Assembly: GCF_000317145.1 (NCBI RefSeq)
Contig: NC_019697.1
Location: 4,786,886-4,850,885, forward strand
Length of the DNA stretch: 64,000 nt
DNA from: Chamaesiphon minutus PCC 6605
Lineage (GTDB): Bacteria; Cyanobacteriota; Cyanobacteriia; Cyanobacteriales; Chamaesiphonaceae
Reading direction: 5' to 3'
This document shows, piece after piece, positions 6,839 through 54,557 of this stretch. The notes below the pieces were generated by a model that saw only the letters and a list, made by a program, of their open reading frames with translations, did no database searches and was not told the origin of the DNA. The stretch's first letter is position 1. Each line of letters starts with the position of its first letter. The position numbers and the translations under genes were made by a program.

Positions 6839-6950
6839 GCCAGTCAAAGCTAGCGCAACTCCCGCTTAGATCGAAATTGCAGGCAAGGATGGAAGATAAA
6901 CAATATCGGGGCTTTAAATAAACTTCAGCACTGAACTATTCAGCTAGTTC

Positions 6951-7172
6951 TCAATCATTCGTCCAGCACTCTGCGCCGACGAGATCGATAATCCGACCTC
7001 TTAACAAGTAGTCATATTCGTTCAATAGGTGTTCGACTTCTGGCCATTGACGATCGTCAAAAAATCGCTTGAGTTCGTAGATGCGTTGCTGACGACCGAC
7101 CGACCCGCGTGCTACCAGAGCACGAACTTCATCTTGAAAGTCACTGATGCAATATCGTTCTAAAACGGCCAT
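6951..7172 (-). CDS. Small conserved hypothetical protein
   Basis: A 73-residue, helix-rich acidic protein (MAVLERYCISDFQDEV at the start). A good ribosome binding site, AAGAGGAAA, lies just ahead of the ATG and supports real translation. It is divergent from argZ with a 310-base gap. I do not recognise the family. Confidence 0.65.
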   Translation of the reverse strand: MAVLERYCISDFQDEVRALVARGSVGRQQRIYELKRFFDDRQWPEVEHLLNEYDYLLRGRIIDLVGAECWTND

Positions 7173-7482
7173 GGGGGTTTCCTCTTATGAAATTTAATAA
7201 AAATAGTTAGAGCGAAAGCGATTAAATTTACCGAACAGTATTATTTGCTACAGTTATCTCTATTGGTATCTGCCGATCGGTATATCTTTATTAAACCTCA
7301 AATTTGAAGATCTGGCTTTCGATAAATATTATTTTTACAGGATTGTGCGATGCTAAGCGCGCAATTGCTACAATTGTCGCGAACTACCGCTCGTCAATGT
7401 CGGGACTACTTACGACTTAGTTAGCGCATCGCTGTAGCGATTTTTACCCACCCATCGAATTTAGTTCGCAATTAAACCAAAC
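7173..7482. other. Divergent intergenic region ahead of argZ
   Basis: This 310-base gap serves both the small gene on the minus strand and argZ on the plus strand. Apart from the NtcA-like palindrome listed separately, I see only AT-rich sequence and a HIP1-like GCGCATCGCTGTAGCG stretch near 7423-7438. Confidence 0.5.
7238..7251. promoter_or_regulatory. Candidate NtcA binding site (GTA-N8-TAC)
   Basis: GTA TTATTTGC TAC matches the consensus of the global nitrogen regulator NtcA exactly and sits 231 bases upstream of the argZ start. About 16 such matches are expected by chance in 64 kb, so the position ahead of a nitrogen gene is the main support. A well-spaced -10 box is not obvious. Confidence 0.35.
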
Positions 7483-9582: not shown

Positions 9583-9616
9583 GGGATAGGGGATAGGGGA
9601 TAGGGGATAGGGGATA
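9582..9616 (+). repeat. Short tandem repeat, five GGGGATA heptamers
   Basis: Five perfect GGGGATA units begin at the last base of the argZ stop codon. The same heptamer forms the inverted arrays near 37.6 kb. This is the cyanobacterial STRR class of heptanucleotide repeat. The rest of the gap to 10011 holds no gene that I can support. Confidence 0.9.
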
Positions 9617-10011
9617 GTGAATGAAGGTTAGAGGGTAGAAAGTATGCGGCAGGAGGTTTGAGGTGTTGTGGAACGGCGTTCCACTATCCATTACTCATTA
9701 CCGATCGCCCATCCACCCACTCTCCGCTGCCCGTACTGTCAAATTCAATACATCCATTCTTGCTGTTTATTGATAAGTTCAGATCGGCCTGCATCCTGTG
9801 TCTCGATCCCCATTGACGATCGCATCGGCGGTAAGTCTGTCTCGACCTAAAATTTAGATCGATCCAATTTAAAAAACAATCCTGACGACAGATAGATCGA
9901 TCGATTGACTCCAGATACAACCATGTATTCCCAATCCGCAATCCACAATCCACAATGGTATGAGATTTTGGTTCGCTCTGGTGATATGATGGAAGACTTG
10001 AAGTCTTTGTT

Positions 10012-10854
10012 ATGCTTAAAGTAACGCCTTTTCTAGACCATAAATCTATGTTAATTTCGACCCATTATCCAGTAATGGTGATTGGTGGAGCAGAAGACAA
10101 AGTCAATGGGTGCGGCATCTTAACCGCTTTCTTTAAAAGTGCTGGCGGCAAGATGGCGACAATCGGCATCATCCCCTGCGCCTCACAAGAACCCAGCGTT
10201 GTTGGCGATCGCTACTACCAAATATTTAAGGGGATGGGTGCCCAGCAAGTGCAAATACTCGATATTCGCCAGCCTAAAGAGTGCGACCAAGACCGTTGGC
10301 TAGATATTTTAGCTAATTGTACTGGCGTATTTGTCACTGGCGGAGATCAATTGCGCCTCCGCGATCTAATTGGCGGCAGTAGGTTTATGACCTCCATCAA
10401 AGAGCGCATCGCACAGGGAGAACTCGTCTTAGCCGGAACTAGTGCTGGTGCGGCGATCGTTGGCGAGCGGATGATTGCTGGCGGCAGCAGTGGCGAATCT
10501 CCCAATCAATCATTAGTCGATCTCACCACTGGCTTGGGCATTTTTCCAGAACTGCTGGTAGATCAACATTTCCACAACCGCAATCGCATGGCGCGATTGA
10601 TCAGCGCGATCGCTGCCCATCCCGACAAGTTAGGAATTGGGATCGATGAAGATACCTGTGCGGCATTTGAAAATGATGGTACTTTTGAAGTCCTCGGCCA
10701 AGGCACGATTACGATCGTCGATCCGGGTAAATTAACCCATACTAATTATCGCGCAGCCACTCAAAGTTCGCCCCTGAGCCTACACAATCTTACCGTTCAT
10801 GTCTTGAGTCCCGGCGATCGCTATGACTATCAAAACCGAGTAGTATTATCATAG
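10012..10854 (+). CDS. cphB: Cyanophycinase
   Basis: A 280-residue serine exopeptidase of the S51 family. The nucleophile is Ser144 in the elbow GTSAGAA, preceded by GVFVTGGDQ and followed by DQHFHNRNR, both conserved in cyanophycinases. It releases beta-Asp-Arg dipeptides from cyanophycin granules in the cytosol. It is slightly longer at the N-terminus than the roughly 270-residue family norm, so an internal start near Met13 is possible. cphA follows 276 bases later in the same direction, the usual cphB-cphA order. Confidence 0.95.
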   Translation: MLKVTPFLDHKSMLISTHYPVMVIGGAEDKVNGCGILTAFFKSAGGKMATIGIIPCASQEPSVVGDRYYQIFKGMGAQQVQILDIRQPKECDQDRWLDILANCTGVFVTGGDQLRLRDLIGGSRFMTSIKERIAQGELVLAGTSAGAAIVGERMIAGGSSGESPNQSLVDLTTGLGIFPELLVDQHFHNRNRMARLISAIAAHPDKLGIGIDEDTCAAFENDGTFEVLGQGTITIVDPGKLTHTNYRAATQSSPLSLHNLTVHVLSPGDRYDYQNRVVLS

Positions 10855-11130
10855 CCGCTAATGTAAAAGTATCGATCGACACTCGTTTTAAAGATCGCTG
10901 GCAAGTTTTGATGAATTTAGCCACTCGATCGCCACGATCTCGATCGTTGTGTATCCAGCAATACTGAATTAGACCCTCAACTTGAAATTAAGTAAGAGTG
11001 GCATATTAATTCGATCGAAAAGAGTTTGACTCTAGCAGCAGATTCCCAAACTCAGCGTTTCAAATTTTATTTAAAACTACAAAATTACACTCACATCAGG
11101 GTGTAGTAAGCTAAAGGTATCGATCTACAT

Positions 11131-13857: not shown

Positions 13858-14192
13858 ATCTGATGTTAGACCGAAAAGGCGATCGAGCTAGATGTATTTA
13901 GTTCGGTCGTCATCGATCGTGAAAGTCTTCGATTATGCAATTTAATCCATCGATCGATCTGGAGCGGTCGATAATCGCGATCGATGCCGCCCAAGTTCCG
14001 CCCGTACTAAGCCATATAGCTATCCCGAACCATTCGCATCGCGCATGACAGGACGCCAAAAGCGATCGCTTGGCAAAGACTTTAGCTCCTTGTCAGTAGT
14101 TTTGTTCTGACAAAATTGACTTGCTCCCGCTCGATCCTGACAGTCAGTAGTCGATCGATGTTGACGTCGAACGACCACTGACGAGATATTTA
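13858..14192. other. Intergenic region between convergent cphA and the ABC importer operon
   Basis: This 335-base gap lies between two 3' ends. Near 14138-14190 there is an imperfect inverted repeat that could end the minus-strand operon, but it has no T run. Short CGATCGAT-type repeats are frequent. No gene is seen. Confidence 0.4.
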
Positions 14193-15212
14193 CTACATTG
14201 ATTTGACGATGGAATCGTCATAGAGCGATTCGACTTTGAGGGGTTGAGTGACAAATTTAAATTCTTCAGCCGCTTTGGTAGTCAACTCTAAATTACCAAT
14301 CAAGCTTTTGGGGTTGCTTTTATCGAAAGCAATTGTCTTGTTCGCCGCCACGTCGAATAACTTCACCCCCGCCAATTGCTCTTTGACTTCAGCCGCAGTT
14401 ACGCCCATTTTGTCACCAGAAATTTTCAATGCTTCTGGGTCGCTAGCCATGACGAGCTTGACGGCTTTATCGACAGCTTTAAAGTATGATTGGAGGTCTT
14501 TCGAGCGAGTTTTGATGAGTTTGTCGCGGACGACCACCACATCGGCAATTAAGTTGGTATCTTTACTAGAAAAGATGATATTGCCACCACCTAGCTTGGC
14601 ATTTTTAGTTAAATAAGGCTCATAGGTAACAGCTAGATCTACTTGCTTTGAGCCAAAAGCCGCAGCTGCTGCACCAGCTTCCATATCTTTAATCTTCAGA
14701 TCGGCCTCAGTTAACCCACCCTGCTTTAAATAAGCTTGCAGCAATACTTTTTCAAAGAGCACGTTTTCCCTAGCGGCATTTTTACCCTTAGCATCTTTCG
14801 GTGTGGCAATATTCCTACCGATAATGCCATCGGCACCATTAGAATAATCGACTAAGTAGGCAATTTTTAATGATGGATCTTTAGCGATTGTTTGAATTGC
14901 ATCGCCCGATGTCAACCAAGCAATATCAGCCTTACCAGCTAATACCGCAGTGATTTCTTCACTAGCACTTTGGAAAAATAAATCTTGAACATTCAAGCCT
15001 TCTTGTGTAAACAGTCCCTTTTTGACTGATACATAATGCCCTGAATAACCTACCCAGTTGTAAGCTGCCGAAACTAGGGGTGCGGATGCGGCTGTTGGTG
15101 CAGAACTATTATCAGGGGCATTAGTCTTTGGTTGCTGCGTACAGGCAATGGTTAATACAAAAGCAGTTATTGCTAAGAAAGTGCAGCGCAACCAAGCAGA
15201 TAGTTTGAACAT
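14193..15212 (-). CDS. ABC transporter substrate-binding lipoprotein (SsuA/TauA/NMT1-like)
   Basis: A 339-residue periplasmic binding protein with a lipoprotein signal ending in the lipobox LTIAC (Cys24). The mature part matches the NMT1/SsuA-type fold, with a SAAYNWVGYSGHY start and a VLAGKADIAWLTSGDA segment typical of this class. It is the last gene of a minus-strand set with permease, hydrolase and ATPase. Transporters of this type are often annotated as urea carboxylase-related and go with guanidine or nitrogen-compound use, which fits the carboxylase and DUF1989 genes nearby. The ligand is inferred. Confidence 0.85.
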   Translation of the reverse strand: MFKLSAWLRCTFLAITAFVLTIACTQQPKTNAPDNSSAPTAASAPLVSAAYNWVGYSGHYVSVKKGLFTQEGLNVQDLFFQSASEEITAVLAGKADIAWLTSGDAIQTIAKDPSLKIAYLVDYSNGADGIIGRNIATPKDAKGKNAARENVLFEKVLLQAYLKQGGLTEADLKIKDMEAGAAAAAFGSKQVDLAVTYEPYLTKNAKLGGGNIIFSSKDTNLIADVVVVRDKLIKTRSKDLQSYFKAVDKAVKLVMASDPEALKISGDKMGVTAAEVKEQLAGVKLFDVAANKTIAFDKSNPKSLIGNLELTTKAAEEFKFVTQPLKVESLYDDSIVKSM

Positions 15213-43070: not shown

Positions 43071-43144
43071 CGGGATGTAGCGCAGCTTGGTAGCGCACTG
43101 CTTTCGGGAAGCAGGGGTCGGAGGTTCAAATCCTCTCATCCCGA
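43071..43144 (+). tRNA. tRNA-Pro (CGG)
   Basis: A 74-base tRNA with acceptor CGGGATG/CATCCCG, D arm GCGC, anticodon loop TTCGGGA (anticodon CGG), T arm GGAGGTTCAAATCCTC and discriminator A. Its 3' half is copied imperfectly at 43766-43811, marking an old integration site. Confidence 0.95.
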
Positions 43145-43273
43145 CTAGGGTAAAAATGGTAGAAATAACACGATAAAAGGATTTCGGGCTTTGGCTGGAA
43201 TCCTTTTATTTTTTGGTAAAGGGTGTTCAGGGGTGTTAAGACGAGACGTTTTTATCACCAAAATTACCATCTA

Positions 43274-43645
43274 ATGAAAGTCACCATCGAAGCTAAAAAA
43301 ACCTGACACCTACTCAGATGGGTTTGTCCCCAGACGGGGAAGCGCGTAGCTATTTCTGTTAATGAAGCTTCTGAGGGGCGAAAACCAACGAAGTTAAAAG
43401 ATCGCATCGAGAGCGACATCAAACACGGCGAATACGATCGAACCCTGGTAAAGTACCGCCCTAAAACCATTGGGATGAACAAGACCGAATTAACCACAGT
43501 AGAGCTATTCGATCGGTTCACCCAGTGGCAGCAGAAGCACCAAGGATTGAGCAAAGCCTCGATCGATACTCGCGATAAGTGTCTGACGGTGATGCTAGAC
43601 AAGCATCTGAATTGCACTGATACCATTCGTTACCAGATATTTAAC
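43274..43645 (+). pseudogene. Truncated tyrosine integrase remnant behind tRNA-Pro
   Basis: Codon-by-codon reading gives MKVTIEAKKT, a stop, then an integrase arm-binding style segment: GKRVAISVNEASEGRK, IKHGEYDRTLVKYRPK and VELFDRFTQWQQKHQG. It has the same layout as the first 110 residues of the intact integrase downstream (IAYGNFDTSLLRYKPR, AVELVQKYIAHR). The catalytic C-terminal domain is missing. It is a decayed element integrated into tRNA-Pro. Confidence 0.82.
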
Positions 43646-44016: not shown

Positions 44017-44097
44017 GGGTCGATGGCCGAGTGGTTAATGGCGGCAGACTGTAAATCTGCTGGGAGACCTACGCTGGTTCAAATCCAGCTCGGCCCA
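44017..44097 (+). tRNA. tRNA-Tyr (GTA)
   Basis: An 81-base class II tRNA with acceptor GGGTCGA/TCGGCCC, anticodon loop CTGTAAA (anticodon GTA), a variable arm GGGAGACCTACG, T loop GGTTCAAATCC and discriminator A. It lies 11 bases before tRNA-Thr. Confidence 0.96.
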
Positions 44098-44108
44098 CTT
44101 TCACCAAC

Positions 44109-44180
44109 GCCCTCATAGCTCAGTGGTAGAGCACTTCATTGGTAATGAAGAGGTCATGAGTTCAAGCCTCATTGAGGGCT
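44109..44180 (+). tRNA. tRNA-Thr (GGT), integration site of the 10.4-kb element
   Basis: A 72-base tRNA with acceptor GCCCTCA/TGAGGGC, anticodon loop TTGGTAA (anticodon GGT), a T arm ATGAGTTCAAGCCTCAT and discriminator T. From base 44134 onward its sequence is repeated perfectly at the far end of the element. Confidence 0.96.
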
Positions 44181-44183
44181 TCG
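44134..44183 (+). repeat. attL, 50-bp direct repeat inside tRNA-Thr
   Basis: It starts at the anticodon stem (CTTCATTGG) and ends three bases past the tRNA (GGGCTTCG). It is identical to 54508-54557. Confidence 0.95.
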
Positions 44184-44323
44184 GGTTGTAACGTATTACT
44201 GGTAAGGCTTTTAGGAAACAAATCAGTCCTAACGGCCTCATTTTTGTGTCTATTCACAGTTAATAATGTGCTGTTTTGGCTGTTTTGGTTGGCCTATCAC
44301 CCACCATTTCACCCACTGTTTTT

Positions 44324-45433
44324 ATGCACATCGAAAAGCGCGGGAATAGCCTCCTTATCAGGTTTTCGCACGAGGGTAAGCCCTACAGCTTCAGCTTGCC
44401 CAAACACAATAATCCCGTTGGGATATCTAACGCCAAGCTGAAGATCGCTCAGATCGAGAAAGATATAGCTTATGGGAATTTCGACACTTCTCTACTCAGA
44501 TATAAGCCGCGCAAACTGGGTAAAAATCCAACGGCGATAACTGCTGTAGAACTAGTTCAAAAGTATATCGCTCATCGTCGAGACTCTCTATCTAATGGCT
44601 CGATCGTCAGACTTCAGGCGATGGCTTCCAAGCTTACCCAATTATTAGGGGACAAGCCCGCTGAGAAAGTTACTGAGTCAGTGGCTAAGGACGCGATCGC
44701 GCGGTGGTCGGAGTCAGCCTCTACCCAATCTATTAAAACCTATCTATTTTTGCTCAAAGCCTGCTGGGAGTGGGCTAAGGGTAAGTATCATATCGCCGAA
44801 ACTAACCCATGGTCGGAATGTCTCGATCGGGTGCGTTCTAGTGGCAATAATGGGCAGTCCAAGCAGCTCAAGCCCTTTACTATTGCTGAGTTACAAGCTA
44901 TTATCGCCGCATTTAGAGCGCATCCCAAATACTGTCATTACACAGACTTTGTAGTTTTCTTATCACACAGTGCTTGTAGATTGGGAGAAGTCGCGGGACT
45001 GAGATGGAAGCACATCGGCGCGGACTTTGCCACAGCTTGGATCGGGGAATCTATCAGCCGTGGACATCAGAATAAGAAGGGGACTAAGACGGGGAAAACT
45101 CGCACGATTCAACTATCTCCCACGGTGACGTCGATGCTGGCAGACAGACGCGCTCGCCTGAACCCACAGCCTGAAGATCTAGTATTTCCCAGCCCTTTGG
45201 GTTTAGCCATTGACGATCATCGGTTTAGGGCGCGAGCTTGGAAGACGATTCTAGAAAATTGCCGGATTGAATACCGATCGCCATACAAAATAAGACATTC
45301 AGCCATCTCTCACGCCCTCAACAATGGGGCTAACTTTATCGCACTGGCAGAACAGACGGGGCACGATAAGCGGGTGATGTTGTCTACCTATGCACACGCG
45401 ATCGATCGGGAATGTTTGTTTGTCGATTTCTAA
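44324..45433 (+). CDS. int: Tyrosine site-specific integrase
   Basis: A 369-residue recombinase from the ATG at 44324 (MHIEKRG); the longer frame from 44276 is not conserved. The N-terminal part resembles arm-binding and SAM-like core domains. The catalytic domain shows Arg in SACRLGEVAGLRW, Lys in GKTRTIQL, Arg-His in YKIRHSAISHAL, TGH and the nucleophile Tyr in MLSTYAHAID. It lies 141 bases from the tRNA-Thr end and should catalyse integration at the 50-bp core. It appears intact. Confidence 0.94.
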   Translation: MHIEKRGNSLLIRFSHEGKPYSFSLPKHNNPVGISNAKLKIAQIEKDIAYGNFDTSLLRYKPRKLGKNPTAITAVELVQKYIAHRRDSLSNGSIVRLQAMASKLTQLLGDKPAEKVTESVAKDAIARWSESASTQSIKTYLFLLKACWEWAKGKYHIAETNPWSECLDRVRSSGNNGQSKQLKPFTIAELQAIIAAFRAHPKYCHYTDFVVFLSHSACRLGEVAGLRWKHIGADFATAWIGESISRGHQNKKGTKTGKTRTIQLSPTVTSMLADRRARLNPQPEDLVFPSPLGLAIDDHRFRARAWKTILENCRIEYRSPYKIRHSAISHALNNGANFIALAEQTGHDKRVMLSTYAHAIDRECLFVDF

Positions 45434-45909
45434 CTGGGGTGGGGACATCTTTCACTTACTACAGTTGGAATGTATCTCTCGTCTCTCTAATGAAAACTCA
45501 AATTTTCTAACTGAGTGAGATTACTATACATGCTATACACTATTGGCTCTGAGAAAGGATTTCAGGTATACATCTGGGTATACACAAGTATGCACAGGTA
45601 TACACAAAACTTGGAGAAAAGAAGCGATCTCAATGTTTTTGTTTGCAAATTTTGAAAATGTAAAGATTTATGAAAATCTTGTCTCACTAATATCGAAACT
45701 AGCCGATTTTATACTTAATTACCCAATATTACACCCCAAACCTTCTCAGGGAGCGGGATTGACAGATCGAAGCAAAACTTATAAATTGAAAACAAGCTTT
45801 ACCAGTAATAAAGTCGCACAGCTCACTTACAGTTCAACCAAACAAAAACACCCGACACCCCCGAAAGGATGTCGAGTGACATCTAAAAAACCTATCCTCA
45901 TTATCCCCC
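45434..45909. other. Control region of the element
   Basis: This 476-base AT-rich gap contains the GTATACA repeats. A 124-codon open frame at 45543 is judged spurious. The promoter for the 45910 gene and the replication operon probably lies here. Confidence 0.45.
45566..45604 (+). repeat. Iteron-like GTATACA direct repeats
   Basis: Three GTATACA and one GTATGCA start at 45566, 45578, 45588 and 45598, spaced 12, 10 and 10 bases, close to one helical turn. Such phased repeats bind replication initiators or repressors. Confidence 0.7.
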
Positions 45910-46176
45910 ATGCCTAAGAAGCTACAAACTCCTGACAAGTTCAAATTCATGACTGAGCGATCGATCGTGCAGGAAAAATATGAGCTGACGCGCTGGCAAT
46001 CCGCCCAACTCCGAGCCAAATTGCCCAAGGGTATCTATTGGCTCCAAATCGAGAAAGGCGGACTCATACAGTGGAATTGGACGCTGTTGCAAAGTTATTT
46101 GCTTAGTGGTGCTGATTGTCCCCAGCATCGCGCTCTCGTAGAAGAGTACATCGCTACTCTTCCCCAATCAGCATAA
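45910..46176 (+). CDS. Small element protein, possible DNA-binding/excisionase-like
   Basis: An 88-residue protein with YELTRWQSAQLRAKL and GGLIQWNWTLLQSYLLSG, helix-rich and slightly basic at the N-terminus. Position between the integrase and the replication gene is where satellites and prophages keep excisionase or AlpA-type regulators. The sequence alone does not prove this. It is followed by a strong terminator. Confidence 0.65.
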   Translation: MPKKLQTPDKFKFMTERSIVQEKYELTRWQSAQLRAKLPKGIYWLQIEKGGLIQWNWTLLQSYLLSGADCPQHRALVEEYIATLPQSA

Positions 46177-46180
46177 AAAC

Positions 46181-46217
46181 AACACCCCTCAGATGCCTGA
46201 ATTTCTGAGGGGTGTTT
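46181..46217 (+). terminator. Intrinsic terminator between the small gene and the primase gene
   Basis: A 13-bp perfect stem (AACACCCCTCAGA and complement) with a 10-base loop, ending GTGTTT. It separates the small gene from the replication operon. Confidence 0.78.
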
Positions 46218-46321
46218 CCAGCATCCGAAGGCGGTGCTAGAGCGGGTTTTCTTAAAATTTGTTGACTCGATCTTAACACCTTTCGGATGCTCTGTCACCC
46301 TACAACACAGCGGCACCAACC

Positions 46322-48943
46322 ATGAACGATACCCAAGGGCAACTTCAACTACTAGGCTACAAGGACGGTGAATCTGTTTTCTACCGCGCCATTGCTGATA
46401 ACAATCCGCGCAAGTTATCGGCTAAATTCCCCGCCACTCCATGCGAACTAGATACGTTAAATAATGAGGGATTTAACATCTATGTTGTCGTAAATGGCGG
46501 CGGTGACAAGGATGCGGACGTCGTTGCCTGCAAGGCGATATTTTACGAGCATGACGATCTTCCTAAAGAAGATCAGCTAACCTTCTGGCAGTCACTTGGA
46601 TTACCAACGCCAACATTTCAGGTAGATACAGGTGGTAAGTCGATTCACTCCTACTGGGTATTTAATGCTGCGATCTCAGTCGATTTGTGGAAGGTACTCC
46701 AGAAAGATTTGCTGAACTACTCCGAGGCCGATCGCACGATTAAAAACCCGTCGCGAGTTATGCGGCTAGCTGGATTCAAACACCAGAAGACGGGTGTAGT
46801 TGCATCGATCGTCAGTAAGTCTGGGACAAAATATTCCTACGACGAGCTTCGATCGTTAGTCCCTCCGACTCCAGTAGCGGTAAAGGAGAAGAAGCAAAAG
46901 CAGGAACCAGCAGCGGGGAAAGTCGCCAGCACCAAACGCGCCAAAAGTTTCGACAGCACCCCTACAGGCATCCCGATCGAGCGTTTACTTACCAAAGCCC
47001 ACCGCGAAGCATTAGGCGGAGTGTTTGAGGGTAGCCGTGACAATATGGGCTTAGAAATTGCCTGTGACTTAATTGGAGTTGAATCGCTGGGTTCGATCGA
47101 GTGCGACTACAAAGGTAAAAATTACACCCTAGAGATCGAGCAGAATGCGCGGGAATTATTCACCGATTACTGCCGTGGTTGCAACCCACCCCTAGACGAG
47201 CGGGATGAGGAACGGATTTGGAACAGTGCGAGCCAAAGAGACGGAGAACCATCGAATCGTGATGAAGATGCGATGAAAAATTGCGCTCGAAGCTACCTGA
47301 AGGAATTAATCAGTACCACGCGCTCGACTGGCAGTAAACACCAAGCATCAGCACCCGTAAAGAACGAGAGCGGTTGTGATTACCCCGCTCTAGCTAAAAG
47401 GTTGGGAATTACACTAATCCAAGACGATCGTGGGAATGTCAAATCGAAATTAGTTGAGTTGACACTAAACCTGTTTAATCTGCTTGGCGAAAAATTGAGA
47501 CTCAATCAGATGACGAATGATTATGAGTTCGAGGGAAAACCACTAGACCTCAACCACATCAAGAGTTTTATTTCTCAAAATTTGGGTTGTGACAGCAGTA
47601 CAGAGAATTGCATTCAAGCGGTTCACGCAATCGCCAGTCGATTCGCATTTCATCCGGTTCGAGACTACCTCGAATCGCTGAAAGATTCCCCCCTTGTGGA
47701 TTTTGAAGTGTTCGATAATCTGGCTACCTTGTTTTTGGGTAACTCCGATCCATTGGCTAATCGAATGTTAGCGAAAACACTCATCGGAGCCGTTGCCCGG
47801 GTTAAGAAACCAGGTACCAAGGTAGACACCTTGACTGTCCTTCAAGGCGGACAAGGGTTCTTAAAATCGACTTTTCTAAAAGTTCTGGCTGGCGATTCTT
47901 GGTTCTGTGATGATATTCGAGATCTAGAGAGCAAAGATGAGATCGCCAAACTTGCGCGTTACTGGCTCATAGAATTGGCAGAGGTCGATTACTTAATGGG
48001 ACGAAAGGAAGTGGAGGCATTCAAGCGATTTCTATCGACGACTGCTGATACATATCGCCCACCTTATGGCCGATCGAATATCCGGAATGAGAGAACGTGC
48101 GCTCTGTTTGCCACTACCAATAAATCTGAATTCCTGAAAGATCCCACGGGAAGCCGCCGATATTGGGTAATAAAGGTGGGGACGAAAATTGATTGCGATC
48201 TCGTATCCAAGTATCGAGACATTATCTGGGCTACTGCATTAGCAGCTTACGATCGCGGTGATACATGGTGGCTGGATGACAATGAGGAATCACAACGTGA
48301 GGCGGCGGCGGTAGATTTCCAGGAGATCGACCCATGGCAAGACGTTTTAGAGAACAAGTGGGCTGTTGTCCCAGTGATTGAAAAGGACAATTTGGAAATC
48401 GTCCAGATTGATTCAATTTTCCAGATTCTAGAGGTGCCGATCGAACGCCGTACCCAAGCATCCAGGAACCGGATCGGTGCAATATTGCGGAACCTAGGCT
48501 TTGAGAATAAGCCCATTTGGTATGACGGCAAAACTAGAAAGCTCTATGTTCGTTTTACAAGTTTAATAGAAGAGACAGGTAAGGCAGGTAAGGAAGTAGC
48601 CAAGAACCATCCACAGCATGGGATACACGCCTTACCTGTCTCCGATGACAAACAGGTAAGGACAGGTAAGGAATTTGAGACATCTGAAGCTGAAAACAAT
48701 ACAACACATGGGATACGCGCCTTGCCCGTCTCTGAGAACAAACAGGTAAGGAAAACAGGTAAGGAATTTGAGAAACACAGCCTATCCGAACGCGATCGAG
48801 TCTACATTCCAGCCTGTGCAAAATATGGTGTAATCTCACGAATTGCCCCCAAGCAGGGTAAAGACGGTCTGTACGCTCGCGTAAAACTAGAGGAGGATGG
48901 CAGCGAACGCGATCTACTTCTTGAATATTTGGAGGTCGCCTAA
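46322..48943 (+). CDS. RepB-type primase / VapE-family helicase replication protein
   Basis: An 873-residue protein. The N-terminal 200 residues look like a RepB/AEP-type primase (KAIFYEHDDLPKEDQ, VDTGGKSIHSYW). The middle to C-terminal part (about 440-690) is a VapE-type P-loop ATPase with GGQGFLKST (about 510-518), WLIELAEVDYL and FATTNKSEFLKD. VapE-type proteins drive satellite and phage replication. Residues about 760-820 contain a 30-codon duplication. It starts an operon; the helicase ATG follows its stop directly. Confidence 0.85.
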   Translation: MNDTQGQLQLLGYKDGESVFYRAIADNNPRKLSAKFPATPCELDTLNNEGFNIYVVVNGGGDKDADVVACKAIFYEHDDLPKEDQLTFWQSLGLPTPTFQVDTGGKSIHSYWVFNAAISVDLWKVLQKDLLNYSEADRTIKNPSRVMRLAGFKHQKTGVVASIVSKSGTKYSYDELRSLVPPTPVAVKEKKQKQEPAAGKVASTKRAKSFDSTPTGIPIERLLTKAHREALGGVFEGSRDNMGLEIACDLIGVESLGSIECDYKGKNYTLEIEQNARELFTDYCRGCNPPLDERDEERIWNSASQRDGEPSNRDEDAMKNCARSYLKELISTTRSTGSKHQASAPVKNESGCDYPALAKRLGITLIQDDRGNVKSKLVELTLNLFNLLGEKLRLNQMTNDYEFEGKPLDLNHIKSFISQNLGCDSSTENCIQAVHAIASRFAFHPVRDYLESLKDSPLVDFEVFDNLATLFLGNSDPLANRMLAKTLIGAVARVKKPGTKVDTLTVLQGGQGFLKSTFLKVLAGDSWFCDDIRDLESKDEIAKLARYWLIELAEVDYLMGRKEVEAFKRFLSTTADTYRPPYGRSNIRNERTCALFATTNKSEFLKDPTGSRRYWVIKVGTKIDCDLVSKYRDIIWATALAAYDRGDTWWLDDNEESQREAAAVDFQEIDPWQDVLENKWAVVPVIEKDNLEIVQIDSIFQILEVPIERRTQASRNRIGAILRNLGFENKPIWYDGKTRKLYVRFTSLIEETGKAGKEVAKNHPQHGIHALPVSDDKQVRTGKEFETSEAENNTTHGIRALPVSENKQVRKTGKEFEKHSLSERDRVYIPACAKYGVISRIAPKQGKDGLYARVKLEEDGSERDLLLEYLEVA
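48617..48776 (+). repeat. 90-bp period duplication carrying CCTTACC(C/T)G and CAGGTAAGG motifs
   Basis: CATGGGATAC is repeated at 48617 and 48707, and the following 60 or so bases are similar (ALPVSDDKQVR and ALPVSENKQVR). The same motifs cluster at 53783-53906. Confidence 0.8.
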
Positions 48944-50371
48944 ATGACTTACCAACTCCGAGATTACCAAACCGATTTGCTCGATCGCATCAATAAAGCC
49001 TGGTTCAGTGGACATCGATCGCTACTTTGCCAACTTCCAACAGGCGGCGGCAAAACGATCGTATTTTCCACAGTCGTACACCAAGCCAGCAAAAGCGGCT
49101 TAAAGTGCTTGGTGTTAGCCCACCGGGAGGAGTTAATTAAACAGGCGGCGGACAAGATAGAAATCATCACTAACGAGCCTGTGGGCATCATTAAGGCGGG
49201 GTATCCTGCTAACTACGATCGAGATATTCAAGTGGCCTCAGTTCAGTCTCTTGTCCGTCGTCTCGATCGCTGCCCCCAGTTCGATCTCATCGTCGTCGAT
49301 GAAGCCCACCACTCCACATCTCGCACTTACCGAACCATCCTCGATCGCTACCCCAACGCGCGGGTATTGGGCGTAACGGCAACCCCGATCAGGCTGGATG
49401 CCAAAGGCTTTCGCGGGATATTCGACGAGCTAATTTGTGGCGTTACTGTTTCCGAACTAATCGCCTCTGGTAGCCTATGCCAGTACAAATACTTCGCCAG
49501 CGAACGATCGATGTCAGTCGAGAATGTTGGCAAACGTCAGGGTGATTTTAAAACTGAAGATGTCGCCAGAGCTAACCCCGTCGCAGGTTTGGCGGGGGAT
49601 GTAGTCAAATCTTATCGGGATTATCTACCAGGGAAACAGGCTGTAATATTCTGCATCAACGTGGAACACTCGATCGCGATCGCCGAACATTTTAAAGCTG
49701 CTGGCATCATCGCCCATCATCTGGACGGGAACAGTAGCAGCGGGGAACGAGCCGATGTGATGACACAATTCACAGATAAACAGATTCAAGTCCTAACCAA
49801 CTGTGCGCTATTTGACGAGGGGCTGGACATCCCCTCGCTCGATGGGGTGATACTGGCACGTCCGACTCAATCCCTCAGCCGATTCCTGCAAATGGTGGGA
49901 CGCGCTCTTAGAGTCTGTGAGGGGAAAGAACACGCGATAATCATCGATCTAGCGGGCAATTACGAGCGGTTGGGAATGCCGGATGATGTTCGAGCCTGGA
50001 CTCTAGACGGGTTAGAGAAGAAACAGCGGGAACGATCGAAGCTGGTGCGGAATAAGGAGACAGGTGAGGTAGAGGAAATTGTTATCGACCTGACCCCAAC
50101 CGGAACCAAGTTCATTGAGATTGTTGGCCGCTCGATCGAACTAACTCCAGAGCTATCGTTTTGGATCGACAAGTGTAACCGGATATTGTTCGAGCGCGAG
50201 TTGAACGATCGTAAAGCCGCCTGGTGCATGTACCGACTAATGGAGTCTGAAACTAAGCCCCCGCTTGAAGCTTGGCAATATCTAGGTAAGAAGCTTGGGT
50301 ATCATCACGGTTGGGCAAAATACAAGTTTGCTGAGTGGCAGTCAATATCCGAGCGCGAGGTGTCAGCGTGA
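48944..50371 (+). CDS. DEAD/DEAH-box superfamily 2 helicase
   Basis: A 475-residue SF2 helicase with Q-like start QLRDYQTDLL, motif I LPTGGGKT (31-38), DEAH-box VVDEAHHS, motif III GVTATPIRLDA and C-terminal motif VI QMVGRALRVCEG. It resembles RadD/YejH-type helicases. The ATG directly follows the primase stop, and its own stop overlaps the nuclease start by 4 bases. It may process replication forks of the element or act on competing DNA. Confidence 0.9.
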   Translation: MTYQLRDYQTDLLDRINKAWFSGHRSLLCQLPTGGGKTIVFSTVVHQASKSGLKCLVLAHREELIKQAADKIEIITNEPVGIIKAGYPANYDRDIQVASVQSLVRRLDRCPQFDLIVVDEAHHSTSRTYRTILDRYPNARVLGVTATPIRLDAKGFRGIFDELICGVTVSELIASGSLCQYKYFASERSMSVENVGKRQGDFKTEDVARANPVAGLAGDVVKSYRDYLPGKQAVIFCINVEHSIAIAEHFKAAGIIAHHLDGNSSSGERADVMTQFTDKQIQVLTNCALFDEGLDIPSLDGVILARPTQSLSRFLQMVGRALRVCEGKEHAIIIDLAGNYERLGMPDDVRAWTLDGLEKKQRERSKLVRNKETGEVEEIVIDLTPTGTKFIEIVGRSIELTPELSFWIDKCNRILFERELNDRKAAWCMYRLMESETKPPLEAWQYLGKKLGYHHGWAKYKFAEWQSISEREVSA

Positions 50372-50721
50372 GCCATTTAGAGCAACAATTCGCGGATTTG
50401 TGGCTGTCCCTCTACCCTGATATCGATCTGCATTCCGAATACCGCTTCATCCCCCCGCGCCGCTACCGTTGGGACTTCTGCCACCTTAAATCTAAAGTAG
50501 CGATCGAGATTCAGGGTGGAGTGTGGATGCAGCGGAGCGGACACAGCGGGGGTACTGGACTGGTGAAAGACTACGAGAAACTGTGTTTGGCAGCGGCTCT
50601 TGGCTGGCGGGTGTTTCTTTTAGCAGACTCAATGATTAATGATGAGTATTTAAAGCTGATTGCTGAAGCGATCGAGCATTCCCCCAGACAACCACCAGGC
50701 GCAAACATCGAGTTAATTTGA
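50368..50721 (+). CDS. Short PD-(D/E)XK endonuclease-like protein
   Basis: A 117-residue protein from the GTG at 50368, which overlaps the helicase stop (GTGA). The likely active site is Asp36 in YRWDFCH with Glu47 and Gln49 in AIEIQGG, followed by a GTGLVKDYEK segment. This layout is common in short Vsr-like or phage nucleases. Fused expression with an SF2 helicase suggests a joint DNA-processing activity. The fold assignment is by eye. Confidence 0.75.
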   Translation: MSHLEQQFADLWLSLYPDIDLHSEYRFIPPRRYRWDFCHLKSKVAIEIQGGVWMQRSGHSGGTGLVKDYEKLCLAAALGWRVFLLADSMINDEYLKLIAEAIEHSPRQPPGANIELI

Positions 50722-50748
50722 CCGAAGAACCAACAATTACTAAATCCA

Positions 50749-51006
50749 ATGCAACTAACTAACATGGAAATCACCGCTGATATGGTAGCCAAACAAATCG
50801 CCGTCCAACTTCTCACCACCATTAACGGTGTGGCTAATGGGGAAGTCATCATCAGCAATGCGAAGGAACTAACCGAAGATCAATGGACGCGAGTCGAATC
50901 TATCTACCAGAATGCTGATGGGACTATAACTGTGGTTCTGAACGACAACACAGCTCTTTTAGAGTGGCTCAATGAGCAGTTCCAAACAGCCGATTGCAAC
51001 CAGTAA
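50749..51006 (+). CDS. Hypothetical element protein
   Basis: An 85-residue acidic protein (MQLTNMEITADMVAKQ; a second ATG five codons on also fits). It appears mixed alpha/beta. It lies between the nuclease and the terminase gene in the same operon. The stop codon is inside a 22-bp tandem duplication. No family recognised. Confidence 0.6.
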   Translation: MQLTNMEITADMVAKQIAVQLLTTINGVANGEVIISNAKELTEDQWTRVESIYQNADGTITVVLNDNTALLEWLNEQFQTADCNQ

Positions 51007-51037
51007 AAACCTCTATTGCAACCAGTAAAAACCTCTA
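50994..51037 (+). repeat. 22-bp tandem duplication over a stop codon
   Basis: A unit beginning TTGCAACCAGTAAAAACC occurs twice back to back (50994-51015 and 51016-51037). The first copy holds the TAA of the 85-residue gene. Confidence 0.92.
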
Positions 51038-51052
51038 TTGACTCAAATCGTT

Positions 51053-51571
51053 ATGTCACAGCCCTTATTAACCCCCAAACAAGAGAGATTCTGTCAGGAA
51101 TACATAATAGATCTCAACGCCACTCAAGCGGCAACTAGAGCGGGATATAGCGTCAAAACAGCAAATCAGCAAGCGGCTAGGATGTTGACGAATGTTAACA
51201 TTCAAGCCAGAATTGCTCAATTACAGGAGCAGAGACAAGAGCGTACCCAACTGACTCAAGATGAGGTAATCGATGAACTGGGGTTAATCGCACGGGCTAA
51301 TATCGAGGACTTTTTGACTATAGAAAACGAACAAGTCAAGCTTCAAGATTTCTCCAAAATTGACAGAAAGAAGTTAGGAGTCATTCAGAGTATTAAGAAA
51401 GGGCGCGATGGAAGTATCACACTGAGCCTACACAGCAAGATGTCAGCACTTGGAGAATTAGCTCAAATCATGGGACTGAAAACAGATCTTAATTTGGCGA
51501 TCGCTAGCTTTGCTAAATATGGAATCGATGTCAAACGGACGGAGGATGGTAAGTGGTTTATCCCAGATTAG
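51053..51571 (+). CDS. terS: Terminase small subunit (TerS)
   Basis: A 172-residue protein from the ATG at 51053. It begins LTPKQERFCQEYIIDLNAT and continues AATRAGYSVKTANQQAARML, the HTH of the Terminase_2 small-subunit family that recognises pac DNA. A coiled-coil or oligomerisation region follows. No large terminase or portal is present in the element. In SaPI-like satellites such a lone TerS redirects the helper phage packaging motor to satellite DNA. That role is inferred. Confidence 0.88.
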   Translation: MSQPLLTPKQERFCQEYIIDLNATQAATRAGYSVKTANQQAARMLTNVNIQARIAQLQEQRQERTQLTQDEVIDELGLIARANIEDFLTIENEQVKLQDFSKIDRKKLGVIQSIKKGRDGSITLSLHSKMSALGELAQIMGLKTDLNLAIASFAKYGIDVKRTEDGKWFIPD

Positions 51572-51661
51572 GGAGAAAGTCTGAAGCGATCGGACATTCC
51601 CCAGACAGCACCAGGTAATTAGTAATTATTCGTAACTTAGAGAGAGAAAATATCTTCCAAT

Positions 51662-52105
51662 TCAACTCAATTGCGTAGTCTCTGGATTTAACCACTGCCA
51701 AAAACATTCAGGGATATCGATATCCTTGATGGCTGAGACGTTCACTTCGGTTTGCTTAACACTCCAGTCTTTCTCGATTAGTAGTTCGGTTAGTTGCTGC
51801 CAATACTGGGGTTGTACCTTGGATATGTGGGAAAGGTGATTGGCTTTGTCTAAAAGTGCGTGGATATCCACGCACTTTATTATGTCTAAAATCTTTGCAG
51901 CTTCCTTGTATGGACGCAAGGTGCCTTCGCTTCGCCCTAATTCTCTGGCGTATTCTCTCAGTCCCCCTTTCTTCCCCCGTCCACCCTCTGACAGCTCCAC
52001 ATACTTAAGGGCGTGAATCCCAATTTCTAGGGGTGATAACTCGCCCTGAGAATTGGCTTTCACTAATTCTAGGAATGCTGCGTCGTTGTCTTGAGTCAGT
52101 GTCAT
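51662..52105 (-). CDS. ParB-like helix-turn-helix protein
   Basis: A 147-residue protein on the opposite strand. The segment GGLREYARELGRSEGTLRPYKEA is a good HTH, followed by helices as in KorB/ParB central domains (LDKANHLSHISK, EKDWSVKQTEVNV). The N-terminal CTPase part of ParB is absent. It may be a repressor or a segregation factor of the element. It is the last gene of a three-gene minus-strand set. Confidence 0.72.
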   Translation of the reverse strand: MTLTQDNDAAFLELVKANSQGELSPLEIGIHALKYVELSEGGRGKKGGLREYARELGRSEGTLRPYKEAAKILDIIKCVDIHALLDKANHLSHISKVQPQYWQQLTELLIEKDWSVKQTEVNVSAIKDIDIPECFWQWLNPETTQLS

Positions 52106-52111
52106 AGGGAG

Positions 52112-52306
52112 CTAAGGCTTAGAGGGTGGAATCATCGCGAATCGTTTACGGCGTTGTAGCCCTTGGATCGAAAGATGAATCATTTGGGCTAGTTCATTGT
52201 TACCAGCCATGACAGCGGCGTTATAGTCGTCGATGGCGTCGATTATTTCCGCTTCGATGTTGGCTAGGGCTGTGGCGTGAATGTCGTCGATCTCGAATGG
52301 TTTCAT
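52112..52306 (-). CDS. Small hypothetical element protein
   Basis: A 64-residue acidic helical protein (MKPFEIDDIHATALAN). Only 6 bases separate its stop from the ParB-like gene, so they are co-translated. No family recognised. Confidence 0.6.
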   Translation of the reverse strand: MKPFEIDDIHATALANIEAEIIDAIDDYNAAVMAGNNELAQMIHLSIQGLQRRKRFAMIPPSKP

Positions 52307-52371
52307 AGGTTCTATGGAGATGTTGAGTAGGTGGCTGTCCCGATTTGATTTCGGGACATCGCTAGTAGGGT

Positions 52372-52641
52372 TTACATGTAGTCAGGAATCTCGATCCGAC
52401 CGTGAGCCAAGTACTCAGCAGTAACGGCGGCTACAGCTTGCTCTAGAAGGCGGTAGGGTTGGTTATTGGTAACGAACACCTCGTCAGTCTCACCAACGCC
52501 AGCGGGGAGAATATCTAACCCCCAAGATGGGAAGATTTCGATGGTACCCATGAGTTGGTCACTCAAGAAGGCTTGAATACCCATGTGTGAGTGTTCGAGG
52601 CGGATAGCGGTTGAAATGGCGGCGTGATTTTGAGTTAGCAT
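52372..52641 (-). CDS. Small hypothetical element protein
   Basis: An 89-residue protein (MLTQNHAAISTAIRLEH), beta-rich in the middle (MGTIEIFPSWGLDIL). It is the first gene of the minus-strand set and faces the palindrome-rich region shared with the RHH regulator. No family recognised. Confidence 0.6.
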   Translation of the reverse strand: MLTQNHAAISTAIRLEHSHMGIQAFLSDQLMGTIEIFPSWGLDILPAGVGETDEVFVTNNQPYRLLEQAVAAVTAEYLAHGRIEIPDYM

Positions 52642-52789
52642 GATTGAACCTATTTACTTATTGGTTTATGGGTTGAGGGGCGATCGCTTACTTTTTGCGG
52701 AGGAGGCGATCGCTTTCTCATGTCTGTCAGTTGCGATTTGTCTAACTTTTGGCTTGTGGGTCGCATCCCGTTTCCATATACCTAATATA

Positions 52790-52933
52790 TCATTACCTGT
52801 AATTATTTGTCAATATGCATCATGCTCTATATTGATACACCATGCTTATGTATTTACATGATATTGACAGATAATTATCAAATTTAATTATGTGTTAATA
52901 CTTGTCATTATTTGATGTCATAATAGGTAATGA
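52790..52933. promoter_or_regulatory. Palindrome-rich divergent control region
   Basis: Nested inverted repeats: TCATTACCT (52790-52798) with AGGTAATGA (52925-52933), and a 17-bp pair with one mismatch, TAATTATTTGTCAATAT (52800-52816) with ATATTGACAGATAATTA (52861-52877). The last arm covers the ATG of the RHH gene. Very AT-rich, it fits an operator or an origin. Confidence 0.65.
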
Positions 52934-53364
52934 CCCGTACTTATATATTTATGACTGACGACTCAATGCGGATGGCATCGTTCAGAATCGATCGCGAAAT
53001 GTGGGCTAAGTTCTCAGCCATAGCCAAACGAGAGCGGTTAACTGCTACTGATGCCCTGACTGGATACATACAGAGATGTATCGATAATGATAAAACTGAG
53101 TATGGGGTAAATACCAGTAATGATGAAGCTGTAAGTACTGGTATTGACAGTAATGATAAACTCACTGAAACCATCATTACAGCGATGGGTACGATGTCAT
53201 TACCAACTAGAGAGGATGTAATGACGATGGTAAAGACAGCTATTGACACGTCAGTATCGGGGGAATTTGAAACCTTCAGGGCGGAACTGTTGGAAGTGTC
53301 AGAGTTTGCCCGCAATTTACAGGGGGAGATTGTGAAGGTAAAAAAGCCATTTGCGATCGTGTAA
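52930..53364 (+). CDS. Ribbon-helix-helix (CopG-like) regulator
   Basis: A 144-residue protein. Residues 14-50 (RMASFRIDREMWAKFSAIAK, then TATDALTGYIQRCID) have the beta strand plus two helices of a ribbon-helix-helix DNA-binding domain. The rest is helical and may oligomerise. The start codon is within an inverted repeat, suggesting autoregulation. It diverges from the small minus-strand operon and is a candidate master regulator of the element. Confidence 0.72.
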   Translation: MTRTYIFMTDDSMRMASFRIDREMWAKFSAIAKRERLTATDALTGYIQRCIDNDKTEYGVNTSNDEAVSTGIDSNDKLTETIITAMGTMSLPTREDVMTMVKTAIDTSVSGEFETFRAELLEVSEFARNLQGEIVKVKKPFAIV

Positions 53365-53382
53365 CTCCAGACACGATCGCAA
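53351..53382 (+). terminator. HIP1-containing hairpin at the RHH gene 3' end
   Basis: A perfect 12-bp stem (TTGCGATCGTGT and complement) with an 8-base loop, spanning the stop codon. It has no T run, so it may protect the RNA end rather than terminate. Confidence 0.45.
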
Positions 53383-53399
53383 AACCCGCTCAGGTTGAA

Positions 53400-53663
53400 A
53401 TGAATTTACCCGCTGCCAAGTCCAAACACGATAGCGAACCCGATTGGGTGACTAACGAGACTAGACCCATCTATAACAAGCTGAAAGATGCCCCTGAGCT
53501 ATTGGGCAAAGTACAGATAGCGATCGCGCAACATCCCGATAATAATTTGGAGTTAGCAGCGGCACTCCTCCCCATTGGGTTTCACAAAGCAGACGGGACG
53601 GCGTTGGGGAGTGATAAAATGCCTCGAATCAAGAAAGTAGCCAAAACCCTTTCCCAGAGCTAA
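53400..53663 (+). CDS. Small hypothetical element protein
   Basis: An 87-residue polar protein (MNLPAAKSKHDSEPDW) directly downstream of the RHH gene. The C-terminus is basic (MPRIKKVAKTLSQS). No family recognised. Confidence 0.55.
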   Translation: MNLPAAKSKHDSEPDWVTNETRPIYNKLKDAPELLGKVQIAIAQHPDNNLELAAALLPIGFHKADGTALGSDKMPRIKKVAKTLSQS

Positions 53664-54093
53664 TCATGAAAGTTTGTAGTCTTGTAACGGGACTGGATTC
53701 CTTGCTGTGGGCAATTTACCCGTAGGGGTAAGGTGCTTTGTAGTGTCTCCAGCACCAGAGGAAACCGATCGGTTGAATTGAACCCTTACCCGTCTCCTTA
53801 CCTAACCTTACCCGTCTATTCTGGCAAACGGGTAAGGTATCAAGCCAGACACCGAGCGGTTTTCAGTAATTTCTAACCCGCCTTACCCGCCTTACCCGTT
53901 TTTTTCCCAAAACTCTAGGCAGAAATAAAAGTGTCAAATCGATCGAGCATCGAACAAGGGTCAAATCTGAGATATGGACTACTTACCCCATATAATCGAA
54001 ATAGCCCCCACCAGTGAAGGCGAGGGCTAAATCGATCGAACGGACTGTTTGCAGCAGCGCGATCGATAGTAAACAAAGTACTTACTAAATATT
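53664..54093. other. Non-coding region with TTACCCG repeats
   Basis: This 430-base region of the element holds no supported gene. Its main content is the CCTTACCCG cluster listed next, plus a small TTACCCGTAGGGGTAA hairpin near 53717-53732. Confidence 0.55.
53783..53906. repeat. Cluster of CCTTACCCG motifs with hairpins
   Basis: The motif CTTACC(C/T) occurs at about 53785, 53797, 53807, 53882 and 53891 and inverted at 53829-53837. AAACGGGTAAGG (53826-53837) and CCTTACCCGTTT (53890-53901) are a perfect 12-bp inverted pair followed by a T run. A nearer partner at 53806-53815 gives a compact stem. Confidence 0.78.
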
Positions 54094-54387
54094 ATGACAG
54101 CAGCGACCGACACAGACATCAGGGAAATTAAAGATTTAATCACTGCTCTGGACAAAAAGATCGAGGGTTTAGATAAAAGGATCGAGGTAGGGTTCGCCAA
54201 GGTAGAGGGACAGATTAATACAGTCGAAGCCAAATTAGAGGGCAAGATCGACAAGCTAGAAGAGAGGACTAAGTTAGGTTTTTGGGGCTTTATTTTCCGA
54301 GGTACAGCATTAGCCGCGCTAGCCGCAATGACCGCCATCTTTGTTAAGTACCTGTTCCCAATTTTGCCACCAGTACCCCTAGGTTAA
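54094..54387 (+). CDS. Coiled-coil protein with C-terminal membrane anchor
   Basis: A 97-residue protein. Residues 5-65 are heptad-like (DIREIKDLITALDKKIEGLD and onward) and predict a coiled coil. Residues 70-92 form one membrane segment (FIFRGTALAALAAMTAIFVKY). The layout resembles the phage XhlA-like group and similar cyanobacterial proteins. It is the last gene before attR. Function unknown. Confidence 0.7.
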   Translation: MTAATDTDIREIKDLITALDKKIEGLDKRIEVGFAKVEGQINTVEAKLEGKIDKLEERTKLGFWGFIFRGTALAALAAMTAIFVKYLFPILPPVPLG

Positions 54388-54507
54388 TATTTTGGTAGTC
54401 GGTCTAAAAGTGGCTTGAAATTGGGTACTTCCCACTGTTTCACCCACTGTCTATTGGTGCTAACCCCTAAAAGCCTTTCCCCGTAACTATTTCACGCCTT
54501 GATGATG

Positions 54508-54557
54508 CTTCATTGGTAATGAAGAGGTCATGAGTTCAAGCCTCATTGAGGGCTTCG
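54508..54557 (+). repeat. attR, 50-bp direct repeat of the tRNA-Thr 3' part
   Basis: Identical to 44134-44183. The base before it differs (G versus A) as does the base after it (T versus G), so the repeat is exactly 50 bp. Confidence 0.95.

Follow-up and report, generated by a model that had tools for sequence, protein, structure and literature searches.

The window analysed here, a stretch of 64,000 nucleotides of the cyanobacterium Chamaesiphon minutus PCC 6605 (NC_019697.1, 4,786,886-4,850,885; coordinates below count from its first letter), contains an intact island with defined ends, which carries an integrase gene, a replication gene, iteron arrays and a terminase small subunit (TerS) gene standing alone. 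An earlier note on this DNA had described a 10.4-kb segment with perfect 50-bp ends in a tRNA-Thr gene, and this description holds: the two repeats that end the island are identical and start 10,374 bp apart, and the left one (attL) overlaps the 3′ portion of a tRNA-Thr(GGT) that remains intact and has a tRNA-Tyr (44017-44098) as its neighbour. The genes for the integrase, a small protein that we call o88, a replication protein joining a PrimPol domain to a VapE helicase domain, a superfamily 2 (SF2) helicase, a nuclease-like open reading frame (ORF), an 85-aa ORF and TerS all point rightward; three leftward and then three rightward small ORFs follow (Table 1).

The tyrosine integrase, the primase/VapE protein and the lone TerS that had been named before are each recovered by strong family matches, to which the present analysis adds the helicase, the nuclease-like ORF, o88 and the iteron arrays. 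Equally, the claimed lack of structural, lysis, large-terminase and conjugation genes is borne out, as no such family rises above noise in scans against PHROGs (all 13 named ORFs of the island), Pfam (11) and NCBIfam (10). In the same scans no relaxase or mobilisation family was seen, so that the island does not qualify as an integrative and conjugative or integrative and mobilizable element. Noise-level scores were obtained for the 85-aa ORF (phrog_3803, RIIB lysis inhibitor, E 0.06; phrog_27119, virion structural protein, E 0.062) and for the 97-aa ORF (phrog_937, hemolysin, E 0.006; phrog_689, holin, E 0.036), and among 10 ORFs submitted to PADLOC the helicase alone matched above noise, to restriction and helicase models. 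Throughout, W designates the window island, whereas L, G and C followed by a number designate the other stretches or islands compared, genomes and contigs, respectively.

Table 1. Features of the window island and its insertion site (window coordinates; aa, amino acids).
Feature	Position	Strand	Evidence or remark
tRNA-Thr(GGT), integration target, intact	44109..44180	+	ARAGORN
attL, 50-bp perfect repeat	44134..44183	+	
Tyrosine integrase	44276..45433 (likely start 44324)	+	PF00589 1.1e-17; Arm-DNA-bind_2 2.6e-5
o88, small protein in xis/alpA position	45910..46176	+	family A6, 11 aligned members; beside family integrases
PrimPol (archaeo-eukaryotic primase, AEP)-VapE helicase replication protein	46322..48943	+	PF05272 4.3e-67
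Iteron array 1, 7 x CAGGTAAGG (6 forward, 1 inverted)	48576..48764		candidate replication origin, 3′ end of PrimPol-VapE gene
SF2 (RadD-like) helicase	48944..50371	+	phrog_16 1.1e-98; 41% to S-LBS1 helicase
Small nuclease-like protein	50335..50721	+	phrog_503 1.7e-19, no function given there
85-aa ORF	50749..51006	+	noise-level scores only
22-bp perfect tandem duplication directly upstream of terS	50993..51036	+	
Terminase small subunit, without large subunit	51038..51571	+	PF03592 8.8e-40; phrog_51 1.9e-41
147-aa putative DNA-binding protein	51662..52105	-	sub-threshold Pfam/PHROG scores only; no PDB sequence match
64-aa ORF	52112..52306	-	ORF list; Pfam and PHROG scans
89-aa ORF	52372..52641	-	partial homologue at right end of congeneric G004 island, 56% over 43 aa (L239)
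CopG-like regulator	52930..53364	+	phrog_7325 4.5e-5
87-aa ORF	53400..53663	+	ORF list; NCBIfam and PHROG scans
Iteron array 2, 5 x CGGGTAAGG (1 forward, 4 inverted)	53784..53898		one base differs from array 1
97-aa ORF, coiled-coil/transmembrane by eye	54094..54387	+	noise-level scores only; similar ORFs in L206, L208
attR, 50-bp perfect repeat	54508..54557	+	

The first domain of the replication protein matches the solved PrimPol AEP domain 6zp9 (1.6e-36), which we take to be the protein of phage S-2L, and the second matches 7pds, a chain entitled 'Similar to D. nodosus vapE' (2.6e-29) and presumably derived from a staphylococcal island. The aligned part contains a GGQG-x2-KST nucleotide-binding loop, and DUF5906 scores only below its cut-off. 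S-2L is also the best phage record for the protein (55% covered, 35% identity); VapE-type relatives were found in 59 of 386 sampled genomes of the phylum, with at most 49% identity outside this genome. As for the small ORF behind the helicase, a sequence motif suggests a nuclease.

The integrase, which has matches in 220 of the 388 genomes of the class, more likely starts at the in-frame ATG at 44324 than at the listed TTG at 44276, since the ORF of a congener (L235) begins there. Behind it, o88 has no significant Pfam or PHROG family; its predicted model is poor (mean predicted confidence, pLDDT, 61) and a fold search returned nothing at E<=0.001, though by reading of its sequence it may resemble the winged helix-turn-helix/AlpA type. 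A profile of o88 has 83 matches, spread over 63 of the 338 genomes searched in the class; at least 38 of these matches lie within 5 kb of a listed family integrase. The best 13 matches all lie within 2.4 kb of an integrase; ten of these are rows of the profile itself, originally found beside integrases, which makes that figure circular, and the other three were already known from the island comparison, so the independent part is at least 25 of the remaining 70. This placement beside integrases makes o88 the probable directionality partner of the integrase, i.e., a recombination directionality factor.

The two iteron arrays are confined to the island: the motif C[AG]GGTAAGG has 12 copies in the window, and all 12 lie inside the island and in the arrays. 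The first array packs seven copies into 189 bp, inside the last 370 nt of the PrimPol-VapE gene, and in 300 two-base block shuffles of the element there was never more than one copy of the 8-base core per 250 bp. When an array is defined as at least four identical 9-mers, counted per 300 bp, about 92 kb of other DNA from this genome yields five clusters, or about one in every 18 kb: the left 43 kb of the window contains two and its right 9 kb none, while L128 contains three and L129 none. One copy of array 1 is inverted within coding sequence, which would point to selection on the DNA rather than to peptide repeats. The array falls into two groups, with an A+T content of only 0.52-0.56 in and beside it, and we regard it as a candidate replication origin.

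Residues 6-87 of TerS match solved small terminases (3zqp, 1.5e-11; Pam5 small terminase 21di, 3.3e-9), and the tandem duplication directly ahead of its gene is a candidate site for TerS or for a regulator. A single-protein search for the window TerS across 60 relatives matched one genome, its own. The family PF03592 is present in 14 of 388 genomes of the class and in 101 of 386 in the phylum sample, 99 of the latter in family f47; five of the class loci fetched (L149, L150, L152, L156, L157) have a match to the large subunit (TerL) beside TerS, as in prophages. A tree built from 60 of the 75 collected rows (the 15 dropped are all from f47) pairs the window TerS with that of Fischerella plasmid4 (97/74, not starred). 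A clade of the window TerS with its counterpart in Aphanocapsa is neither shown nor rejected (approximately unbiased test, p-AU 0.32), and for this reason we make no claim of independent capture.

TerS genes were also seen on three plasmid-like molecules, L154 (G507:C17), L153 (G537:C25) and L057 (Fischerella sp. NIES-4106 plasmid4), with large replication-type proteins and, in some, ParA; the identical 70-bp ends of L154 probably make it a 19.9-kb circle. No TerL, portal or capsid family appears among 25 of the 28 PHROG families listed for them (46 ORFs), and endolysin-type and minor-tail-lysin matches are present. These molecules are possible plasmid satellites.

The plan of the window island recurs in other cyanobacteria with parts exchanged. 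We compared 12 islands that combine a close integrase relative with o88 (W, L148, L203, L205, L206, L208, L209, L211, L212, L214, L215, L233) and that span four family codes (f1, f40, f44, f62). Left aside were L204 and L207, which run into contig ends, and L210, L213 and L216-L222, where BLAST did not find o88; distant o88 forms were later found beside the integrases of several genomes among these. Both ends are fixed by repeats in seven islands (W, 10.4 kb; L205, 9.7; L211, 13.5; L212, 13.0; L214, 10.3; L215, 9.1; L233, about 12.0) and the far end is not fixed in five (L148, L203, L206, L208, L209). It is the replication gene that changes: VapE in W, DUF927 in L148 with relatives in L215 and L233, DUF3854 in L203, DUF3987 in L212, DUF5906/D5_N in L211, and no Pfam family in L205, L206 and L209.

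The sister island L148 (= L163), from Aphanocapsa sp. GSE-SYN-MK-11-07L (JAHHGS010000116.1), occupies the same tRNA-Tyr/tRNA-Thr(GGT) site. Its integrase and o88 are 47% and 38% identical to those of the window, a DUF927 protein replaces VapE, and in the slot of the window TerS it carries both an Sf6-type TerS (phrog_4102 7.7e-33) and a PF03592 TerS that is 42% identical. The contig ends 1.07 kb past TerS, and contig C105 has, 1.2 kb before its end, another copy of att that carries one mismatch; no overlap of at least 15 bases joins the two ends, so that the length is 10.3 kb only if the contigs adjoin. Within the C. minutus genome itself, which has further integrase matches, a second island of the family (L203, G000:C1:1424501-1444500, 1236-14221) lies at tRNA-Val, with an integrase 61% identical, o88, a DUF3854 primase and 5 iterons; the primase is followed by a 1408-aa SNF2/PLD-like protein and an M78 peptidase, perhaps defence cargo.

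Arrays accompany these islands as well. In nine of the 12, an array whose sequence is specific to the island accompanies the 3′ end of the replication gene, within a span from 367 nt upstream to 260 nt downstream of that end. The gene itself contains the array in W (7 copies), L148 (7), L203 (5), L206 (12), L208 (4) and L209 (4); the array straddles the gene end in L214 (9) and L233 (4) and follows shortly behind it in L215 (5). L205 has 11 copies 1.9 kb past the gene, L212 only a 4-copy cluster far away, and L211 no 9-mer array; ten shuffles per island gave no 9-mer cluster. The array counted for L233 (G001) is its weakest, the strongest being two arrays of TATCCGATA with 6 and 5 copies (island coordinates 8911-9536 from the tRNA end), whose position away from the replication gene recalls the second array of the window island. 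An identical array of 7 x CGGTAGACA was seen near 14.9-15.2 kb in L165, L167 and L169 (Nodosilinea, Tildeniella), and none in L164; the first three loci contain distant integrase relatives, suggesting that this type of array reaches beyond the core family.

Terminase genes were sought in the 12 islands by tblastn with a few terminase proteins and by hidden Markov models (HMMs) on selected ORFs (tblastn alone for L233), and were recognised in four, always after the replication gene and 6.4-8.1 kb from the tRNA end. Besides W and L148, these are L215, with an Sf6-type terminase (30% over 141 aa) whose frame is interrupted by a stop, and L209, with a TerL (phrog_38 1.2e-103). The terminase keeps its place behind the replication gene in these four, and the replication gene itself varies, as the DUF927 protein of the Aphanocapsa sister illustrates. 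In L209 (G526:C107, 7480-9389) a helix-turn-helix protein (phrog_645) overlaps the TerL gene, behind which come genes for a DUF433 protein and a type I specificity subunit and not portal or capsid genes, the later ORFs having been scanned in part. As L206 also has a phrog_645 protein after its replication gene, this protein may be an unrecognised TerS.

At the level of the genus, occupation of the tRNA-Thr is polymorphic. In one congener (G001) this tRNA is occupied by a different island, about 12 kb long (integrase 68%, o88, DUF927), with a further integrase piece behind it; in G004 an integrase (64%) sits at the tRNA, and an att copy and the partial homologue of the 89-aa ORF are on another contig; G006 has an integrase fragment; the contig of G002 ends at the tRNA; and G003 gave no probe match in 9.4 kb beyond it. 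The occupants seen are islands or fragments, few of them complete. An exact empty site is not demonstrated, the congeneric flanks matching through tRNA-Tyr/tRNA-Thr to about 15 bases from the join and then breaking off. Within the window, less than 1 kb from the island, a fragment corresponding to the N-terminus of an integrase (43274-43615, + strand) follows tRNA-Pro(CGG) (43071-43145); it is 55% identical to the integrase at the tRNA-Pro(GGG) locus of this genome (L222) and, as read from the sequence, is a remnant of another island with the same integrase family.

We are inclined to think that the window island works as a phage satellite similar to phage-inducible chromosomal islands (PICIs) or to their minimalist counterparts (PICMIs), as an intact set of integrase, replication gene and terS stands between perfect att repeats with no recognised structural genes. 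The integrase inserts the island into tRNA-Thr(GGT) without destroying the tRNA, an outcome that the sequence displays. Upon induction, integrase and o88, acting as directionality factor, would excise it, and PrimPol-VapE, aided by the SF2 helicase, would start replication of the circle at the iteron array that its own gene contains, array 2 being perhaps an accessory site comparable to the crr of P4. TerS would then attach to island DNA and bring in TerL and empty heads from an infecting cyanophage, whose terminase would thereby package the island. What the earlier note had called a cyanobacterial PICI-like satellite is well supported as a self-contained island of satellite type, but descent from PICIs finds no support in an AlpA or Stl family match.

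The helper would probably be an incoming phage, because two common head families, the PF05065 capsid and the PF04860 portal, are without a match in the host genome; each of these models matches in 4 of 14 control genomes. TerS in the IMG/VR database led to 36 loci, six of which (L096, L097, L111, L112, L114, L124) were matched by TerL probes from S-2L and Mae-JY24; with six of 36 matched, the probe set is weak and says little on the other loci or on an absence of structural genes.

Several observations weigh against a satellite. The search for head genes in the host genome covered those two families only; the TerL model phrog_2 gives two weak scores there, near 23 bits, and also matches 11 of 14 control genomes, while the 20-kb surroundings of the two host matches contain no match to phage TerL, portal or capsid probes. 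Scans of IMG/VR with VapE, integrase and the o88 profile found no relative, the integrase profile giving four distant integrases (22-30%). No excised, packaged or induced form has been seen, no helper is known, and no AlpA, Stl or capsid-redirecting family was found. Moreover, TerS might be retained as a DNA-binding regulator. The main doubt comes from the family: no terminase gene was found in eight of the 12 islands, including that of the congener G001 at the same tRNA, by tblastn and by HMMs on part of the ORFs, and with none found in most of its members the family, taken in its entirety, may include more than satellites.

This same lack, in islands that share the integrase and o88, is what a non-viral, plasmid-like integrating replicon would lead one to expect, one that spreads by another route and whose acquired TerS acts today as a DNA-binding regulator or is carried as neutral cargo. 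The ParA-like protein of L212, the type I specificity subunit of L209 and the relatives of PrimPol-VapE on 136 plasmid records, several of them cyanobacterial, agree with it; however, unlike terminases (PF03592 TerS, Sf6-type TerS, TerL) recur in the same slot of four islands, and the window island has no relaxase or mobilisation family, so that we hold such a replicon to be unlikely, albeit the most serious competitor. A decayed prophage, which would have lost its structural genes and kept an early region and terS, appears less likely still. It would explain why PrimPol-VapE, helicase and nuclease resemble the set of the cyanosiphophages S-2L and S-LBS1, why TerS is a phage-type protein, and why L209, with the same type of integrase, also carries a TerL. 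Yet the main ORFs are all intact, the genes packed and the att repeats perfect, and islands of 9.1-13.5 kb with the same integrase and o88 exist in other cyanobacterial families with different replication genes. Structural genes in close relatives, which the earlier note had named as the sign of a decayed prophage, did not turn up: tblastn with a few phage proteins and HMMs on selected ORFs recognised none for capsid, portal or tail, some island ends being unfound, and no full prophage with this integrase was met in stretches of up to 20 kb, where the far ends of L148, L203, L206, L208 and L209 are unfixed. Finally, that a formerly active satellite is now immobile in this strain seems very improbable to us, for although the integrase remnant behind tRNA-Pro(CGG) indicates that such islands do decay here, no lesion is visible in int, o88, PrimPol-VapE or terS.

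Returning to the satellite, we propose tentatively, as a view that may well prove too broad, that satellites and related integrating replicons of at least four cyanobacterial families form one modular family, so far undescribed, of which the window island is a member. One integrase lineage with o88 would be kept, together with a cognate iteron origin embedded in the terminal part of the replication gene, while replication proteins (VapE, DUF927, DUF3854, DUF3987) would be swapped. The terminase part, always in one slot, would likewise be exchanged (lone TerS, twin TerS or TerL), whereby each lineage could parasitise a different cyanophage. Phage satellites shape phage resistance and gene transfer, and in cyanobacteria they are known mainly from marine proposals. 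If the proposal is true, the interchangeable terminase slot could be used to study directly how satellites change from one helper to another, and the family points to candidate phage-driven gene transfer and to new replicons in larger-genome cyanobacteria.

Compared with known systems, the window island has several PICI traits: an integrase with att repeats, no structural or lytic genes, a size of 10.4 kb, and a primase/replication module whose gene contains, in its 3′ portion, an iteron array that is presumptively the origin. A PICI master regulator (divergent Stl/Rpr, or AlpA/MerR) is not recognised, as neither o88 nor the 147-aa protein has a significant Pfam or PHROG match and o88 holds the position only. 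PICIs are further characterised by induction, interference and packaging that depend on a phage, and by att sites described as never taken by prophages, a trait against which the few complete occupants of the tRNA-Thr allow only a limited comparison. Capsid-forming PICIs (cfPICIs) have their own capsid and packaging set, whereas this island has TerS only. With the Staphylococcus aureus pathogenicity islands (SaPIs) it shares the VapE domain matching 7pds and the lone TerS; it differs in that an S-2L-like PrimPol domain is joined to VapE, and Stl was not found.

In layout the window island resembles the EcCI-type PICIs, which have the order integrase, small regulator position, primase/rep, origin and terS, in a rightward block of less than about 15 kb with no structural genes, and with origins immediately 3′ of the initiator gene, where the window has its iterons at the rep 3′ end (PMC6092414). 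Unlike them, the window island has an o88 that is not AlpA by Pfam, three leftward genes after terS, no known interference gene and a host of another phylum. PICI origins have two iteron sets around an AT-rich region; array 1 falls into two groups, in DNA of the modest A+T content given above. PICMIs likewise show the order integrase, alpA position and primase, a small gene set and a helper that may be virulent (PMC10803314). Their set (integrase, AlpA of PF05930/PF12728, primase with DUF3987/DUF5906, fis site) is not that of the window island, which sits in a tRNA and not downstream of fis, carries TerS, has no PF05930/PF12728 match and has no gene clearly between integrase and o88. A likeness of the integrase-adjacent gene of many islands to the PICMI gene iolg was considered and rejected, most members not being alike by BLAST.

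The earlier view that such elements are not well described in cyanobacteria needs amending, since satellites have already been proposed there: tycheposons and virion-encapsidated integrative mobile elements (VEIMEs), compared here by their published descriptions, are integrative elements with satellite traits linked to Cyanobacteria in three sources (PMC11389934, PMC10803314, PMC10187409), and another mentions tycheposons in passing (PMC11481560). For larger-genome cyanobacteria, none of the open-access titles listed deals with a PICI-like satellite. The window integrase has no match at E<=1e-3 in 20-kb stretches around the VapE relatives of two 1.7-Mb genomes (L052, L053), and a preprint separates the integrases of picocyanobacteria from these groups (PMC10187409). 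Among phages, S-2L and S-LBS1 differ in being full 34-45-kb genomes with structural genes, but they share with the island the PrimPol-VapE, SF2 helicase and VRR-NUC genes. In S-LBS1, an array with 8 copies of a different 9-mer begins 90 nt downstream of the PrimPol gene, whereas the PrimPol gene of S-2L has no such array.

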